Of a stretch of 36,025 bases of DNA, positions 4,621 to 22,785 are shown one piece after another (positions within the stretch are counted from its first letter, which is position 1; each line of letters begins with the position of its first letter). The notes beneath the pieces were generated by a model that saw nothing but the letters and a program-made list of their open reading frames with translations, ran no database searches and was not told the origin of the DNA. Both the position numbers and the translations under genes were made by a program. Source of the stretch: Kiritimatiellia bacterium (GTDB lineage: Bacteria > Verrucomicrobiota > Kiritimatiellia > RZYC01); contig JAQVYB010000019.1 in assembly GCA_028708815.1 (NCBI GenBank), positions 1-36,025 on the forward strand, given 5' to 3'.

Positions 4621-7407
4621 TTATGCATAAGGGCCGAGAAACCGTTCGCCGTTAAAATGGATGAGATGATCAGGAGCGTCAGCCACCCATACTTCCGTTT
4701 CCCACGAGATTACTCCCAGATAGCGCGCCATGAGGTTACGATCAGGAAAGGCGGTCACATAAACAAGTCCCGGCGTAACGGAGGAAAACAGCGTCGCCAG
4801 TTCCTCGTGTCGCTTGGCATCCACGGGACCGTGACTGGTCACGGATTCGATCAGAACCAGCCACTGTTTTTCCGTATAGTAAACAATGACATCAGGCATT
4901 TTTCCGTGCTCATCGACCCGGCACCCGAGCTTCTTCATTCGGCTTTTGTCAAAAAATGCGAACTTCTTCTTGGTGTCGCCTACATACAAAACCTCCGCGC
5001 CGGGAGTAAAGCGGGGGCAGAATTTCTCAACAATAGCTTTCACCAATTCGTTATGTACACCTGAAGAAAGCTGTATTTCGGTTCCATTGTTAAAACGGAC
5101 GGGTATGAGTTCCATCGTTCGAAGGGAGGCGTAACGTTCCTGAAGAGATGGAACCGTCTTCAAATAGTGGTCCAGCTCCTCGATCCATTGAGGCGTGTTA
5201 TATTGCCGCAGAAGATCTGCTGCCGTGGGGACCAATTGATAGCACCATTTAGGGCTGTTAGTCGCTCGTGCAGGGTCATCGGGATTTTCCCGAACAAAGC
5301 CCGCCTGTACGAACTGATGCATGGTTTGTCGTCGAAAAGTTTCGCGGGTATTCGGAGCGTAATTCACTCCGTAGTGCTCTTTGCAGAAATCCGTGATGGG
5401 AGTAATGCCGATTTGCGGTGTCCGAAGCTGAGCCCAGTCCTCTTCCGTGGTAAGACCTGCCAATGCCAATAATGTTAAGGCTGAGCGCTCATTCTGTTGT
5501 TCCTTGGGAAGCCCCAAAAATCCGAGAATAGCGAGAGCCTCGTCGATTTTATGCCTGATCTTCCGTTTGCCGGGCCGTTTCCTGGGTGCCATTCTGTTTG
5601 CCTCCGCTTCCACGAGTTCATCAATCATTTCGGGATCATCCACAACTTTTCTATATACGCATCCCCATTTTTGCAGAGAGTCCAAAGGAGGATAATTCAA
5701 TCGCTGCAAATCTCCGGCATTAACCTGGGTATGTCCACTGAAAAGCCGGAAATACATATCCACGAGGGAGGAGTTCAGAAACAGAGCCAGCCCTTGCGCC
5801 ACATCAGCCGACAGGCCGTGTCCCTCGGTATGGTATACGTTTAAATGATTTTCAAAACCAATGGGTGTTTCTGTCCTGCACACCGCCGCAACGACACGGC
5901 GCGGTTCTTCTTTGGCGGAAAAGCGTTTGGTTACGACATAGTCACCGGGCGGGAACAGGAGCGTTTTCGTCGCCCCGCATTCCACGATGAACTGGCATTT
6001 GCTGAATTCTTTCTTCGGATGTTCGACAAAACCTTTTCGGATATGTCCCGGGTAGATCAAGGGCTCACTATCCGCCTCCGGTTCAGTGCGCAGAAACTCT
6101 CTGGACCGAAAATCCACCACGCGCCCCGTGGAGACCGCTATCCCGAGATCATCGAGGCTGCATGGAAATGCCTTCATGAGTTCCATGGTGGTCTGATCGA
6201 AATCGTTGAGTGCAATGTGTATGATTTGTTCCGAGCTCTTTACGTTGACCACCTGTGCCGCATCCACTTCGCGGCTCGTAAGCAGATCCCAGCCCGCGCC
6301 GCTACTGGAGGATATTGTAATCCGCTCGTTGATCATTCCTTTTATCAGGTGAAAGATAATGTTTTCCTGCAACACCTCGTCGTCTGAGAAGGCCTGATCC
6401 CTCCGCTCAAACACATGAATTTTTCGCAGGGACGTCTGCTCAAAAAGGAACCGGCGAAAGGGCTTGAAATAGGATCCATTACAAAAACTGCGCGGCGTGA
6501 TAGCCACCAGCTCCCCGCCGGGTTCCAGGTCTCTTACGGCCAATGCCACAAAGGCGGAATATAGATTGCCCGTTTCTATGCCAAGCGCACTCAACGCCGC
6601 TCGCTGTTCGGAATCGCTGTTTATTTTTTTATATGGCGGATTCAAAATGGCGTGTGTATACAAGCGGGGCGGTTTTTCAAACAGCGTGTTTTCAGCATGG
6701 TGTCGGGTATGCAGGATAAAGTCTTCCGAAATGATCTCCGCCGAAAAAAACACGCCCAACTCACGGCAGCGGGTTCTGCAAAGGTTTAAGGTCACCTCCA
6801 GATAGCTGCGGACCACCGGATCAATTTCAAAGGCGGTCACTTCAATGGTTTTCGGCAGATGTTCTGCTTCAAGCATTCGGGTGATCAAGGCCGCTGTCAA
6901 GGTGCCGATCCCGGCTCCGGCATCCAGAATTCGAATCTGGTTGGAAGAAATGACCTCGAACATCTTCGCCATAAATTCGGCAATTTCAGACGGGGTGAAG
7001 TATTGCCCCAGTTTTGATCGTCGTTCCGGAGCGATCTGGCTGGAAACATCCAGTCTTCGATAATCCAGTAGGCCCATTAAGCCGACAGATTTATAGTCCA
7101 GATACGTGACGCCGGGCTCCCGAAGCTGATTGGAGAGCCGTTCAAATTCCGGTTGTGATCCCAAGGTGGCATAGGCCTTTGAAAGAGCCCGTTCTCTGGT
7201 CAACATGTCTGACGAAACGCCGTAAAAATCAGCAAGATCTTTGCATTGATTTGTCGTGGGCAAACGTACTCCACGTTCCAGCTTGCTCAAGAGGGACACA
7301 TCAAGGTTCACCTCCGCCGCCACCCCCCTCAATGTCAACTCCGCCTCCTCCCGCAAGGCACGGAGGTTTGAGCCGATCGATATATATGGATGCTGCTCGT
7401 TGGACAT
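4621..7407 (-). CDS. XRE regulator-N6-adenine methyltransferase-BsuBI/PstI endonuclease fusion
   Basis: A complete restriction-modification system in one 928-residue chain. Residues ~10-65 are an XRE/HTH_3 domain (IGSNLRALREE...LSKLERGVRLP). Residues ~130-560 are an Eco57I/M.PstI-like adenine methyltransferase: GQYFTP (134-139), SAM-binding LDAGAGIGT (161-169) and catalytic NPPY (256-259). Residues ~600-745 match the helical N-domain of BsuBI/PstI nucleases (GITPITDFCKEHYG, APNTRETFRRQT). Residues ~807-928 are the nuclease domain with MPDV (Asp839) and LIESVTSHGPV (Glu854), keeping the family's acidic catalytic residues. BsuBI and PstI normally have separate genes and cut CTGCAG; the specificity here is unknown. 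ATG 7407 is preferred over an in-frame TTG at 7461. The start codon lies inside an inverted repeat, suggesting autoregulation. The gene looks more A/T-rich than its neighbours, consistent with transfer. Confidence 0.9.
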   Translation of the reverse strand: MSNEQHPYISIGSNLRALREEAELTLRGVAAEVNLDVSLLSKLERGVRLPTTNQCKDLADFYGVSSDMLTRERALSKAYATLGSQPEFERLSNQLREPGVTYLDYKSVGLMGLLDYRRLDVSSQIAPERRSKLGQYFTPSEIAEFMAKMFEVISSNQIRILDAGAGIGTLTAALITRMLEAEHLPKTIEVTAFEIDPVVRSYLEVTLNLCRTRCRELGVFFSAEIISEDFILHTRHHAENTLFEKPPRLYTHAILNPPYKKINSDSEQRAALSALGIETGNLYSAFVALAVRDLEPGGELVAITPRSFCNGSYFKPFRRFLFEQTSLRKIHVFERRDQAFSDDEVLQENIIFHLIKGMINERITISSSSGAGWDLLTSREVDAAQVVNVKSSEQIIHIALNDFDQTTMELMKAFPCSLDDLGIAVSTGRVVDFRSREFLRTEPEADSEPLIYPGHIRKGFVEHPKKEFSKCQFIVECGATKTLLFPPGDYVVTKRFSAKEEPRRVVAAVCRTETPIGFENHLNVYHTEGHGLSADVAQGLALFLNSSLVDMYFRLFSGHTQVNAGDLQRLNYPPLDSLQKWGCVYRKVVDDPEMIDELVEAEANRMAPRKRPGKRKIRHKIDEALAILGFLGLPKEQQNERSALTLLALAGLTTEEDWAQLRTPQIGITPITDFCKEHYGVNYAPNTRETFRRQTMHQFVQAGFVRENPDDPARATNSPKWCYQLVPTAADLLRQYNTPQWIEELDHYLKTVPSLQERYASLRTMELIPVRFNNGTEIQLSSGVHNELVKAIVEKFCPRFTPGAEVLYVGDTKKKFAFFDKSRMKKLGCRVDEHGKMPDVIVYYTEKQWLVLIESVTSHGPVDAKRHEELATLFSSVTPGLVYVTAFPDRNLMARYLGVISWETEVWVADAPDHLIHFNGERFLGPYA

Positions 7408-7418
7408 GTTTTGTCCAA
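7400..7418. promoter_or_regulatory. Inverted-repeat operator over the restriction gene start codon
   Basis: TTGGACA (7400-7406), a 5-base spacer and TGTCCAA (7412-7418) form a perfect 7-bp inverted repeat. The minus-strand ATG (7407-7405) falls within it, and no good Shine-Dalgarno sequence is visible. Dimeric XRE repressors bind such sites, and the encoded protein begins with an XRE domain, so self-repression like that of restriction controller (C) proteins is the natural reading. The repeat is seen; the binding is inferred. Confidence 0.6.
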
Positions 7419-8008
7419 TAACATAAAGCGGTGGGTCGCGGCAAGTTTTCAAACGATGCAACCATTGTTTCCCTGGATCGCGACTTCACGAAAAGAACCG
7501 GATGTTTCCGTGTGATGTCGGGAGAAGTAATAAGGGCGGATGGCGCATTGGTAACTTAAAAACGTACTTCCGACAAAAAAAACGAGATTTTCTACCACCC
7601 GTACGGAGTGCGTGGGTGTTTGCACCATGGGACATCCCCGGCACTATGTCGCTGAAAAATTTCCCCAAAATCACCCAAAATTCCGCCTGAAATCGAAGAA
7701 AAACACCAAAAACAACGCCAAAACCGGCCTAAAACGCCAAAAAAACGCTTTTTCACTACGAAACACTCGAAAATTGCGCAAATCTCAATCGGGAACGCAG
7801 GAAATCAGGCAGGAATGCCTACGCTACACCAGAACAAATCCTGTTTTCCGTCAAAACGCGCACTCTTCCCAATCGGTGCAATCTGGAAAGGCCTCTTCCC
7901 CCAATCGCGACAGCGATTTTCACTAAAGCGGGCGGGCATCGAACGATTGACTGGGAGTCAGACGAAAGCAGAATCAAGGAACGTCAACTGGGTTGCGGGA
8001 CACCCGCT
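7419..8008. other. Intergenic region upstream of the restriction gene
   Basis: About 590 bases with no supported gene. It holds the right phased T-tract element, the beginning of an 11-bp inverted repeat that spans 7922-8013, and presumably the restriction gene promoter, which I could not place with confidence. A small CACCC/GGGTG pairing lies near 7597-7620. Confidence 0.5.
7667..7782 (-). repeat. Right phased T-tract element (inverted copy)
   Basis: Read on the minus strand it starts with TTTGCGCA (7782-7775) and GTGTTTCGTAGTGAAAAA (7766-7749), one mismatch from the left element's 18-mer. T-tracts of 3-7 bases then recur about every 9-12 bases down to ~7667, less regular than on the left. 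It ends about 260 bp before the restriction gene start, much like the left copy's distance to the phosphodiesterase. It is therefore in the same orientation relative to its gene as the left copy. Confidence 0.7.
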
Positions 8009-8013
8009 TTAGT
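7922..8013. repeat. 11-bp inverted repeat spanning a gene end
   Basis: ACTAAAGCGGG (7922-7932) is the exact reverse complement of CCCGCTTTAGT (8003-8013), 70 bases apart. The right arm contains the stop codon of the minus-strand beta-barrel gene. No T-run follows, so it is not a typical terminator. It may be a small REP or MITE-like unit, but I see no flanking duplication. Confidence 0.55.
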
Positions 8014-8983
8014 TGCTCTTGCCGGGCCGGATGTTGATGGCGATGGATACGAACGGTTCGCTTTTTAGAGACGGATCGAATTCCGTATCGCCCTGGGTGT
8101 TGAATTCAAAACTTTTCAGCCCCGAATAACCAACCCCGAAATTAAACCAGACCGATTTGTAGACACGCTTTTCCGCCCAGAATCCAAAGTCCCATGCACC
8201 CAGCGAACCGACCACCTGAGAGTCATCCCCTTTCGGGTCGATCGTCCAGCTCGATCCCGACGGAGAGACGCCCAGTTTGAAGAACAGGGAATCGGACGGG
8301 GCATAATTAATCGCGGGCCAGGGCGCCACCAGCGAAATCGCCCAGCAGGGATCGATAATATAACTGAACCCGAGATAGGGCAGAAAGAAGCCGTCGGAAA
8401 AAGCGTAGTCATAGACGAGTCCGTAGTACCAAACCGTTCGTTCTCCCTGAAGGGAACGTCCCGCCACGCAGGCCCATCCGCTGCCGGCCCACTCGGCGTT
8501 GTCCGTCAGTGGGGAATAGGCCGATGGCATGATAAATCCACCCCACTGCTGTCCGGGGCTGGTCTGTACCGCGCCACCCAGGACCAGATTCAAGCCCGTC
8601 ACATCGCGATCTTTCAGGGGGCCTTCCGTGAAGGCAAAATGCGTATAGCTGACATAGGGCACCGCCAACGCAATACTTTTCTTCCCGACGTATATCGGAA
8701 CCATCGCATAGGCGGCGGTGTTCCGGGAGCGGAATTCGATATCTTCCTGATCACCCCGGGTGCGCGTGAACGTGTTCTTTCCATATTCCGTGTGCCGCAG
8801 CGATAAAACCGGAAGAAACGGCACATCGCTTTCCGAACGGGAGAACTCAAACTCCGTATTTTTCAGCTTGAGGAGGGTCGAATCCATCCATCCGTCCGAT
8901 TCCTGTGCGCGAACGCCCACGGTGAGCAGAAAAAAAACGAACGTCAGCAAAAAACAACAAACGGGATGCTTCTCTTTTTTCAC
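8009..8983 (-). CDS. Predicted outer-membrane beta-barrel protein (DUF6268-like)
   Basis: A 324-residue exported protein. It starts MKKEKHPVCCF, followed by a hydrophobic run (LLTFVFFLLTVGVRA) and a likely signal-peptidase site at VRAQES. The mature part alternates short polar turns with amphipathic strands rich in Tyr, Trp, Phe and Gly (LPYLGFSYII, AWDFGFWAEKRVY, VWFNFGVGYSGLKSFEF). It ends in a strand-like FVSIAINIRP, as small outer-membrane barrels do. The whole resembles the DUF6268 group found in PVC and Bacteroidetes-type bacteria. No catalytic motif is seen, so a structural, adhesive or porin-like role is only a guess. It is monocistronic. Confidence 0.7.
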   Translation of the reverse strand: MKKEKHPVCCFLLTFVFFLLTVGVRAQESDGWMDSTLLKLKNTEFEFSRSESDVPFLPVLSLRHTEYGKNTFTRTRGDQEDIEFRSRNTAAYAMVPIYVGKKSIALAVPYVSYTHFAFTEGPLKDRDVTGLNLVLGGAVQTSPGQQWGGFIMPSAYSPLTDNAEWAGSGWACVAGRSLQGERTVWYYGLVYDYAFSDGFFLPYLGFSYIIDPCWAISLVAPWPAINYAPSDSLFFKLGVSPSGSSWTIDPKGDDSQVVGSLGAWDFGFWAEKRVYKSVWFNFGVGYSGLKSFEFNTQGDTEFDPSLKSEPFVSIAINIRPGKSN

Positions 8984-9069: not shown

Positions 9070-9198
9070 CCTCATGGAAGGCGCATCTCCGATTAGGTGC
9101 ATCGCACGAAGAGCCGATCCGACGATCGGCGCTCCCGGGACCGCCAATCGTCTGATTGGCACAGCGTGCACTAAAGCGAAGATGCGCCTTCCCCTCAT
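9070..9198. mobile_element. 117-bp MITE-like element with flanking direct repeats
   Basis: Terminal inverted repeats are perfect over 13 bp: GGAAGGCGCATCT (9076-9088) and AGATGCGCCTTCC (9180-9192). The repeat CCTCAT stands immediately outside both ends (9070-9075 and 9193-9198), as expected of a 6-bp target-site duplication. The interior is an imperfect palindrome centred on CCCGGG (9134-9139). Each half carries its own hairpin: GCCGATC/GATCGGC (9113-9130) and GCCAATC/GATTGGC (9143-9160), both with 4-base loops. It has no coding capacity. All of this is read directly; mobilisation by a transposase elsewhere is inferred. It sits just upstream of the hcp operator. Confidence 0.75.
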
Positions 9199-9218
9199 GG
9201 ACTGTTTTTTTGCATTTC

Positions 9219-9232
9219 TTGACCTGGATCAA
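9219..9232. promoter_or_regulatory. FNR/HcpR/DNR-type operator upstream of hcp
   Basis: TTGACCTGGATCAA fits the CRP/FNR-family pattern TTGAY-N4-RTCAA. Its flanking bases extend the dyad (CTTGA...TCAAG). If the site is centred at -41.5 as for class II activation, transcription would begin near 9267 with a -10 at about 9255-9260 (TAAGGT, a weak match). Regulators of this family commonly control hcp genes under anaerobiosis or NO. The regulator itself is not in the window. Confidence 0.75.
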
Positions 9233-9327
9233 GGAAAAGTCGTACAGTCGGAACTAAGGTATGCGTCAACAAGATGAAATGACGCGATGACCGCGGCATG
9301 GCAACAAGGGAAATGAAGGAGCGCAAA

Positions 9328-10974
9328 ATGAGTATGTTCTGTTTTCAATGTCAGGAAACGGCCCGCAATCAGGGCTGTACGGTACGCGGCGTGTGCGGAA
9401 AACTGCCGGAGACGGCCACGCTGCAGGATGCACTGATCCACACGGTGCGCGGAATCGCCTTCTGGGGCGCCGAGGCAACCAAGCAGCAGATCAACGTCAG
9501 TAAAGAAGGTCTGTTCGCGATGCAGAGTCTGTTTGCAACGATCACCAACGCCAACTTCGACAACGCGCGTTTTGTGACGTTGATCGGGGAAGCCTTGAAG
9601 CAGCGCGATGAGCTGCGTGCGAAGGTGGAAGCCAACGCCAAGGTGGCGGGCGCGTTGCCGGATTGCGCGGTGTGGCAGGGAACAACGGAAGCGGATTATG
9701 CCGCCAAAGGCGCGGAGGTCGGCGTGCTGTCGAATCAGAACGAGGATACCCGCTCGCTGGAACAGTTGATCACGCTGGGTCTGAAAGGGCTCTCCGCCTA
9801 TGCCGATCATGCCGCCATGCTGGGCTATGAGGACGATGGAATCTACGCGTCGTTCATGGAAGCCATGGCCGACACGACCCGCGGATTGAGCGTCGATCAG
9901 TTGGTGGCGCGAACCCTCCAGACCGGACATGACATTGTCAAGGTTATGGCGCTGCTGGACAAGGCCAACACGGAAACCTACGGTCATCCCGAAATCACGC
10001 AGGTCAATATCGGCGTGCGCGGCAATCCCGGGATACTGATCTCCGGACACGATCTGCACGACATGCAGGAACTGCTCGATCAGACCGAAGGCACGGGCGT
10101 GGATGTGTATACGCACAGCGAAATGCTGCCCGCGAATTACTATCCGGCGTTCAAGAAATACAAACACTTCGTCGGCAATTACGGATCGTCGTGGTGGAAA
10201 CAGAATGAGGACTTCACCACCTTCAACGGACCGATCCTGATGACGACCAACTGCATCATCCCGCTCAAGGATGCCTACAAAGATCGTATCTTTACCACGG
10301 GCATGGCCGGCTGGCCGGGCGTACCGCATATTGCAGAGCGCCCCAAAGGCGGAAAGAAGGATTTCTCGGCGATCATTGCGCTCGCGAAGAAATGTCCGCC
10401 GCCGACCGAAATCGAAACCGGCACCATTGTGGGCGGCTTTGCGCACAACCAGGTGTTGGCGCTGGCCGACAAAGTCGTGGATGCCGTTAAGTCCGGCGCG
10501 ATCAAGCGTTTTGTGGTGATGGCCGGTTGTGATGGACGCCATAAAACCCGCTCCTACTTCACCGACGTCGCCGAAGCGCTGCCGAAAGACACCGTCATTC
10601 TGACCGCCGGTTGTGCGAAGTACCGCTACAACAAGCTCAACCTGGGCGATATCGGCGGGATTCCGCGCGTGCTGGATGCCGGGCAATGCAATGACAGCTA
10701 TTCGCTGGCCGTCATCGCGCTCAAGCTCAAGGAAGTGTTCGGATTGGAGGATGTCAACCAGTTGCCGCTGTCCTTCGACATCGCCTGGTACGAGCAGAAA
10801 GCCGTCGCCGTGCTGCTGGCTCTGCTGGCGCTTGGGTTCAAAGGGATGCGCCTGGGGCCCACGCTGCCCGCGTTCCTTTCGCCCAACGTGGCCAAGGTGC
10901 TGGTGGAAAATTTCCACATCAAACCCACCGGCGACGTGGAAGCGGATGTGGCCGCCATGATGGCTGGGAACTGA
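9328..10974 (+). CDS. hcp: Hybrid cluster protein (hydroxylamine/NO reductase)
   Basis: Fe-S/O cluster enzyme of anaerobes that reduces hydroxylamine in vitro and is linked to NO detoxification and S-nitrosylation in vivo. The N-terminal cysteines read C-x2-C-x8-C-x5-C ([19 protein letters not shown]), the spacing of class I enzymes with a [4Fe-4S] proximal cluster, as in Desulfovibrio. Conserved hybrid-cluster regions include [48 protein letters not shown] and [10 protein letters not shown]. Length is 548 residues from the preferred start. I chose ATG 9328 because AAGGAG lies 6 nt upstream (9316-9321); an in-frame ATG at 9298 lacks a site. It is preceded by an FNR/HcpR-type operator and followed by a ferredoxin and a cupin. 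Confidence 0.96.
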
Positions 10975-20609: not shown

Positions 20610-22292
<1,683 letters not shown>

Positions 22293-22293
22293 G

Positions 22294-22785
22294 TTAACCA
22301 TCCTTTTTTGCGTTGTTGATCAGGGGCGCTCCCTGGTTTTTCAGAAAGAGGGCCATATCCGTTATGGCCTCATCCAGTTCATCGCGGATTTGGCGATACC
22401 GGGTTTCGGATTGACCAAATGGGTCGGTCACATCTTTTGCGGTATCGGCCACGCCAAATGCATGCAACAGCCGCACCCGATTTCGGGCTTTTGGAAAAAG
22501 GCGGCACACGGCGTCCCGATGAGCGGAGGTCATTACCACGATTAGATCGGCGTCGTCAATCTTCTCCGAGGTCAAAAATCGGCTGCGGTGTACGGTCAGA
22601 TCGCAGCCGAGTTCACGCATAACGGCGATGGCGTTCGGGGAGGCCTTGGCTCCAACGGCGGCGGAAAGACCGGCGGAGGAACAGCATACGTCAAACACAT
22701 GGCCGAGTTTTCGGCGAAAGAGGTGTTCCGCCATCGGACTGCGACAGGTGTTTCCGGTGCACACAAATAGAACAGTTCGGATCAT
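22294..22785 (-). CDS. Low-molecular-weight protein phosphatase (YwlE/Wzb type)
   Basis: A 163-residue LMW-PTP-fold phosphatase. The P-loop is at the N-terminus, [13 protein letters not shown], giving the CX5RS nucleophile/arginine motif. The general-acid Asp lies in VTDPFGQS near residue 120. The residue after the second Cys-loop position is Thr (GNTCRS), as in the arginine phosphatase YwlE, where that Thr selects phosphoarginine over phosphotyrosine; classical tyrosine phosphatases carry Ile or Leu there. Together with the adjacent rpiB-glyA (Bacillus ywlE-ywlF-glyA) this favours the YwlE type, though no McsB-like kinase is in the window. It begins 4 bases after the upstream gene. Confidence 0.88.

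Follow-up and report, generated by a model that had tools for sequence, protein, structure and literature searches.

The window, that is the whole stretch of 36,025 nucleotides analysed here, carries upstream of hcp a miniature inverted-repeat transposable element (MITE) which, very likely, was moved in trans by an ISKra4-type transposase, was inserted upstream of a promoter and carries a REPIN as cargo. The mover would be a DDE transposase of the Mutator superfamily (p-MULT 4), which would recognise ends of about 23 bp beginning with GGGCGCATCTSCG, make a 9-bp staggered cut and insert upstream of sigma70 promoters, so that the -35 would follow the element end at about 27 bp and the duplicated target at about 18 bp. 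The interior would be a head-to-head REP pair drawn from the genome's own CGGGAGC-tagged, Y1/RAYT-associated REP family. At hcp, the landing upstream of the promoter would have left both promoter and operator box intact. The mechanism itself is of a known kind, but the combination, in MITEs, of a REP-pair cargo and a fixed, measurable distance to promoters appears new within the literature searched (mostly non-subscription, ISfinder aside). The features of the locus are as follows.

9070-9078, no strand: left copy of the target duplication, 9 bp, CCTCATGGA (sequence and 9-bp register of the family)
9079-9192, plus strand: MITE, 114 bp (alignment of 20 copies)
9079-9101, plus strand: left terminal inverted repeat, about 23 bp, AGGCGCATCTCCGATTAGGTGCA (copy alignment and end pairing)
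9113-9140, minus strand: left REP unit, TCCCGGGAGCGCCGATCGTCGGATCGGC, with its hairpin at 9113-9130 and one mismatch to the family unit
9133-9140, no strand: palindrome TCCCGGGA, common to the heads of both REP units (sequence)
9133-9160, plus strand: right REP unit, TCCCGGGACCGCCAATCGTCTGATTGGC, with its hairpin at 9143-9160 and three mismatches to the family unit
9167-9189, minus strand: right terminal inverted repeat, about 23 bp (copy alignment and end pairing)
9190-9192: three extra bases, TCC, after the right inverted repeat, unique to the window copy (copy alignment)
9193-9201, no strand: right copy of the target duplication, 9 bp, CCTCATGGA (sequence and 9-bp register of the family)
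9219-9248, plus strand: predicted hcp promoter, -35 TTGACC (9219-9224) and -10 TACAGT (9243-9248) (promoter scan)
9328-10974, plus strand: hcp, hydroxylamine reductase/hybrid cluster protein (NF003658, 1.8e-249; Prismane)

By inspection, positions 9070-9201 read as CCTCATGGA, the 114-bp element and CCTCATGGA again. Ends of the family have the form GGGCGC...GCGCCC, with an end sequence of about 23 bp (GGGCGCATCTSCGATTTNGTGCA), and they pair over this length in the copy alignment, with 85.9% of cells paired. The window copy begins with AGGCGC, and its right end carries the three extra bases (GCGCCTTCC). For 19 copies of the own genome the identity between left and right flanks is 0.68 in the 9-bp register, against 0.25 for mismatched partners used as control; for 22 elements from other genomes the values are 0.65 and 0.27. 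Among the duplication lengths tested, 9 bp alone stands out, both in the own genome and elsewhere. Perfect duplications include CGAGGTCCT, CATGAATGA, GTTTTCGTT and TCGGATGCG, and in another 29 copies most 9-bp duplications are likewise perfect or close to it. An earlier, sequence-only reading had described a 6-bp duplication and perfect 13-bp inverted ends. CCTCAT does stand on both sides and the ends are complementary, but the duplication is the 9-bp CCTCATGGA; the miscount arose because its last three bases (GGA) were assigned to the left terminal repeat. Likewise, the 13-bp ends (GGAAGGCGCATCT) are complementary as described, but they start inside the duplication, and their match is partly accidental, since GGA plus A faces TTCC in the window copy.

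A search of the own genome with the element sequence returned 63 matches, many of which are a single copy matched on both strands or lone hairpins; about 20 full-length copies have both ends. These counts, the fold score (z = -6.4) and the stems maintained by changes in both arms go well past what chance would give. In other genomes of the class, the same ends enclose short elements whose interiors are unrelated. Of 346 genomes, 19 have one or more pairs of exact 10-bp ends at MITE spacing, and none has the reversed control pattern; a few of the 19 (G242, G249 and G338) appear to be chance hits within coding sequence. The MITE reading proposed earlier is thus supported for a non-autonomous element: it is short (114 bp), has no transposase gene, ends in inverted repeats of about 23 bp, and belongs to a family of dispersed copies with conserved ends and 9-bp target duplications (19 own copies, 22 other elements and 29 more), with a same-ended candidate autonomous element in the class. 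A locally evolved structure, with neither another copy nor an empty site, had been named as the opposite case and is not what was found. The precise empty site at hcp was not found in G001 and G002, whose flanks are not alignable with those of the window. Statistics of the overlap between copies and ORFs are too crude to be of use, as likely spurious ORFs overlap many copies.

In G053 (contig C101, L042 101-300), a CRISPR-like repeat, GGTTTTCCCCACGCGCGTGGGG, is the insertion site of a MITE bounded by these ends, and the adjacent intact repeats provide, within the genome itself, the empty counterpart of its left flank. In the own genome, four MITE copies (L022, L023, L033 and L034) precede one common block, TTCCCCCGAAACGACGCTTTACAATCCCGCG..., a repeated promoter-like leader that is about 200 bp long in three of the four, after which the sequences diverge.

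For several elements of the ISKra4 group, insertion upstream of sigmaA promoters is on record, at a published distance of 13-17 bp (PMC3942029). We scanned both flanks of each copy for -35/-10 pairs with at least 9 of 12 matches and a spacing of 16-18; the clustering described here was first noticed in an open scan. In nine of 20 own copies the -35 starts 25-29 bp from the element end, against a count of 0.41 on average across the windows; the observed maximum was not attained in any of 2,000 circular-shift controls. In 16 copies taken from other genomes the mean score peaks at the same offset, which alone is not significant (P about 0.11). For a second set of 29 copies (G049, G114, G116, G059, G345, G295 and G053), of which at least three from G049 (L323-L325) had already been in the earlier set, the 25-29 window was fixed beforehand: it held a predicted -35 in 11 of 29 copies, against 0.69 expected and with 0 of 5,000 controls, and the mean score peaked at exactly 27 bp (7.03 versus a background of 4.40). 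Over half of the copies have no predicted promoter at the expected distance. The copies lie upstream of predicted sigma70-type promoters at a fixed spacing, which fits the published targeting by ISKra4 relatives, including, for elements whose ends are near-perfect, insertion with the promoter on either side. The offset differs, being 27 bp here against the published 13-17 bp (PMC3942029); measured from the outer edge of the duplication it is 17-19 bp, which is closer but still outside that range. We infer that promoters are recognised during insertion. This is an indication that the preference of a parent transposase for sites upstream of promoters can persist in bacterial MITEs, and such retained targeting would explain elements in front of genes without invoking regulation.

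The window copy follows the family register: the distance to the start of the -35 is 26 bp for the element end and 17 bp for the duplication. Its position upstream of hcp, reported earlier and confirmed in the sequence, is not incidental, in view of the constant promoter spacing of the copies. Its neighbours are hcp and, on the other side, the start of an upstream minus-strand gene (8009-8983); it lies outside the predicted promoter and the operator box. The latter, TTGACCTGGATCAA (9219-9232), is FNR/HcpR-like and shares TTGACC with the predicted -35, a caution for the fit of this copy; a similar box precedes hcp in G001 and G002. The hcp ORF opens at 9298, and comparison with relatives makes 9328 the likely start. 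One might suppose that the element was retained for a selected regulatory function here, be it as insulator, terminator or RNA switch, since it folds stably (z = -6.4) and separates two genes of divergent orientation, a short way before the hcp promoter. We regard this as improbable: hcp is found without the element in G001 and G002, no Rfam match was obtained in the window, and the similar promoter spacing at many unrelated loci, also of elements with different interiors, is explained by insertion specificity. A targeted but neutral insertion is the most economical reading at hcp, and an effect on hcp expression is possible.

Elsewhere in the window, the minus strand encodes a 946-aa protein (4621-7461) that combines an HTH domain, an Eco57I-type methylase region and a BsuBI/PstI restriction endonuclease, and is thus a one-piece restriction-modification enzyme. 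Also on the minus strand (20610-22301), ribose-5-phosphate isomerase B is fused with serine hydroxymethyltransferase.

In the genome, the interior of the element also forms part of another repeat family. Both 7-bp-stem hairpins noted earlier, GCCGATC/GATCGGC at 9113-9130 and GCCAATC/GATTGGC at 9143-9160, are present and are REP units tagged with CGGGAGC, arranged head-to-head and overlapping in TCCCGGGA; with two REP units in inverted orientation, the interior has the form of a REPIN. Allowing up to three mismatches, a search with the 28-bp REP unit TCCCGGGAGCGCCGATCGTCTGATCGGC gave 75 matches in the genome (reversed control, 0), and a good part of these are outside MITEs, adjoining other repeats. 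A perfect hairpin, of one of several stem types, follows CGGGAGC at 42 of 94 distinct sites as compared with 0 of 87 for the reversed 7-mer, although 42/94 is not a genome-wide rate, because the loci were fetched partly for holding these repeats. The stems vary with compensation (GCCGATC/GATCGGC, GCCAATC/GATTGGC and GCCGAGC/GCTCGGC), so that changes on both sides keep the pairing. CGGGAGC-tagged hairpins stand beside three of the ten Y1/RAYT genes found, in two cases on both sides; a stem of the window type occurs beside one Y1 gene only, 1.1 kb away. In other genomes, 5 of 18 representative elements have a GTAG-tagged hairpin, as compared with 2.9% of flanking windows; two elements (G049 and G116) have an opposed pair, which occurs in 1 of 757 windows. 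This test was designed after the sequences had been viewed and is therefore weaker evidence.

The two Y1/RAYT genes flanked on both sides, at L047 1204-1960 and L056 1224-2050, have hairpins of other stem types, namely GCCCCC-GGA-GGGGGC and GGCATGG-GCC-CCATGCC. On contig C35 (L026 1500-3620), a REP pair and a nearby single REP recur about 1.8 kb apart with near-identical flanks, the second copy being interrupted by Ns.

The arrangement resembles REPIN/RAYT systems (PMC3116915, PMC2817692, PMC3733652) in the inverted pair of tagged hairpins and in similarly tagged hairpins that flank Y1 genes. Pseudomonas REPs such as TGTGGGAGCGGGC have, as here, GGGAGC beside the hairpin. The differences are the tag, CGGGAGC instead of GTAG or CGTC, and the enclosure of the pair by DDE-type ends and 9-bp duplications. 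It follows to ask which part is mobile. The free REP units beside other repeats, and the resident Y1 genes with tagged hairpins adjoining three of ten, would agree with a REP pair moved by a resident Y1/RAYT protein, for which the GGGCGCATCT ends were accessory flanks. We consider this very unlikely, because the 9-bp duplications sit at the ends of the GGGCGC repeats, transposition of the Y1/IS200 type makes no such duplication (PMC2817692), and the same ends bound elements with unrelated interiors. Capture of the REPIN by an element with DDE-type ends is the reading we prefer. One element would then unite two mobile systems that are unrelated, the DDE/Mutator ends and the REPs associated with RAYT, and REP repeats would gain a second possible route of spread.

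ISKra4 was tested as the partner on a guess from the end sequence and the 9-bp duplications. Matches to the ISKra4 model were found in 39 of 146 genomes of the class. One of them (G124, L283) has a transposase gene between GGGCGCATCTGCGATTC and AAATCGCAGATGCGCCC, in an element of 1,730 bp; this is a candidate for the full-length transposon with the same ends that the sequence-only reading had proposed to look for, from the same class but not the same family. The best model for its protein is NCBIfam transpos_ISKra4 (4.7e-47; 161 bits, below the curated cut-off of 205 bits), followed by ISLre2 and ISH6, and all three are counted as Mutator-like (PMC3942029). The 9-bp duplication is absent from this copy. 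In G110, an ISKra4 fragment lies between such ends, and the genome also has a MITE bearing them. The family is therefore apparently of ISKra4 type, within the Mutator superfamily, as far as ends and protein models tell. The likeness to the ISKra4 group (p-MULT 4) comprises inverted ends starting with G, a 9-bp target duplication where p-MULT elements make repeats of 8-9 bp, and the ISKra4-like transposase of the same-ended relative (PMC3942029). In contrast to that group, the window MITE and, as far as found, its genome have no transposase gene, and the interior of the MITE is replaced by the REP pair. An ISKra4-type transposase would have moved these copies. In the ISKra4-model search the own genome (G000), a draft in 272 contigs, gave no match, and nor did its two family-mates; among the matches listed, no pair of ends stands at transposon distance in the own genome. 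The local copies thus look orphaned; probably they are, or their partner is absent from the draft.

Other candidates for a partner or long element did not hold. At L250, with 1,622 bp between the ends, no transposase-like ORF was seen by inspection among the ORFs listed. On contig C95, no second end accompanies the lone end close to a Y1 gene, and that locus is flanked by CGGGAGC-tagged hairpins. Among the cyanobacterial plasmid ISKra4 elements checked for ends, one has GGGCGCATCT, near one side only. An ISAzo13-like element as the autonomous partner, suggested by a G053 contig that joins a MITE end to its coding sequence, can practically be dismissed, since it has its own ends (GGCGTCAATAAATAACATAG) and sits inside a MITE copy as a nested insertion (L245 1-193, G053:C41).

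Across the class, one may speculate that Mutator-type MITE ends repeatedly capture local RAYT REP pairs, giving a series of chimaeric elements in which REPs are spread by a second, promoter-targeting transposase, come to stand at a set spacing before promoters and possibly serve there as a regulatory layer in common; we put this forward only tentatively, as an extension with less than even chances. Among described bacterial MITEs, Nezha, Chunjie, QMITE and MITEAba12 are likewise short and non-coding, with inverted ends, target duplications, many copies and a transposase acting in trans (PMC10969869, PMC6382973). For these four, no description of a fixed promoter spacing or a REP cargo was found in the literature searched, and their end sequences, judged from their descriptions, differ from those of the window family (PMC10969869, PMC6382973).
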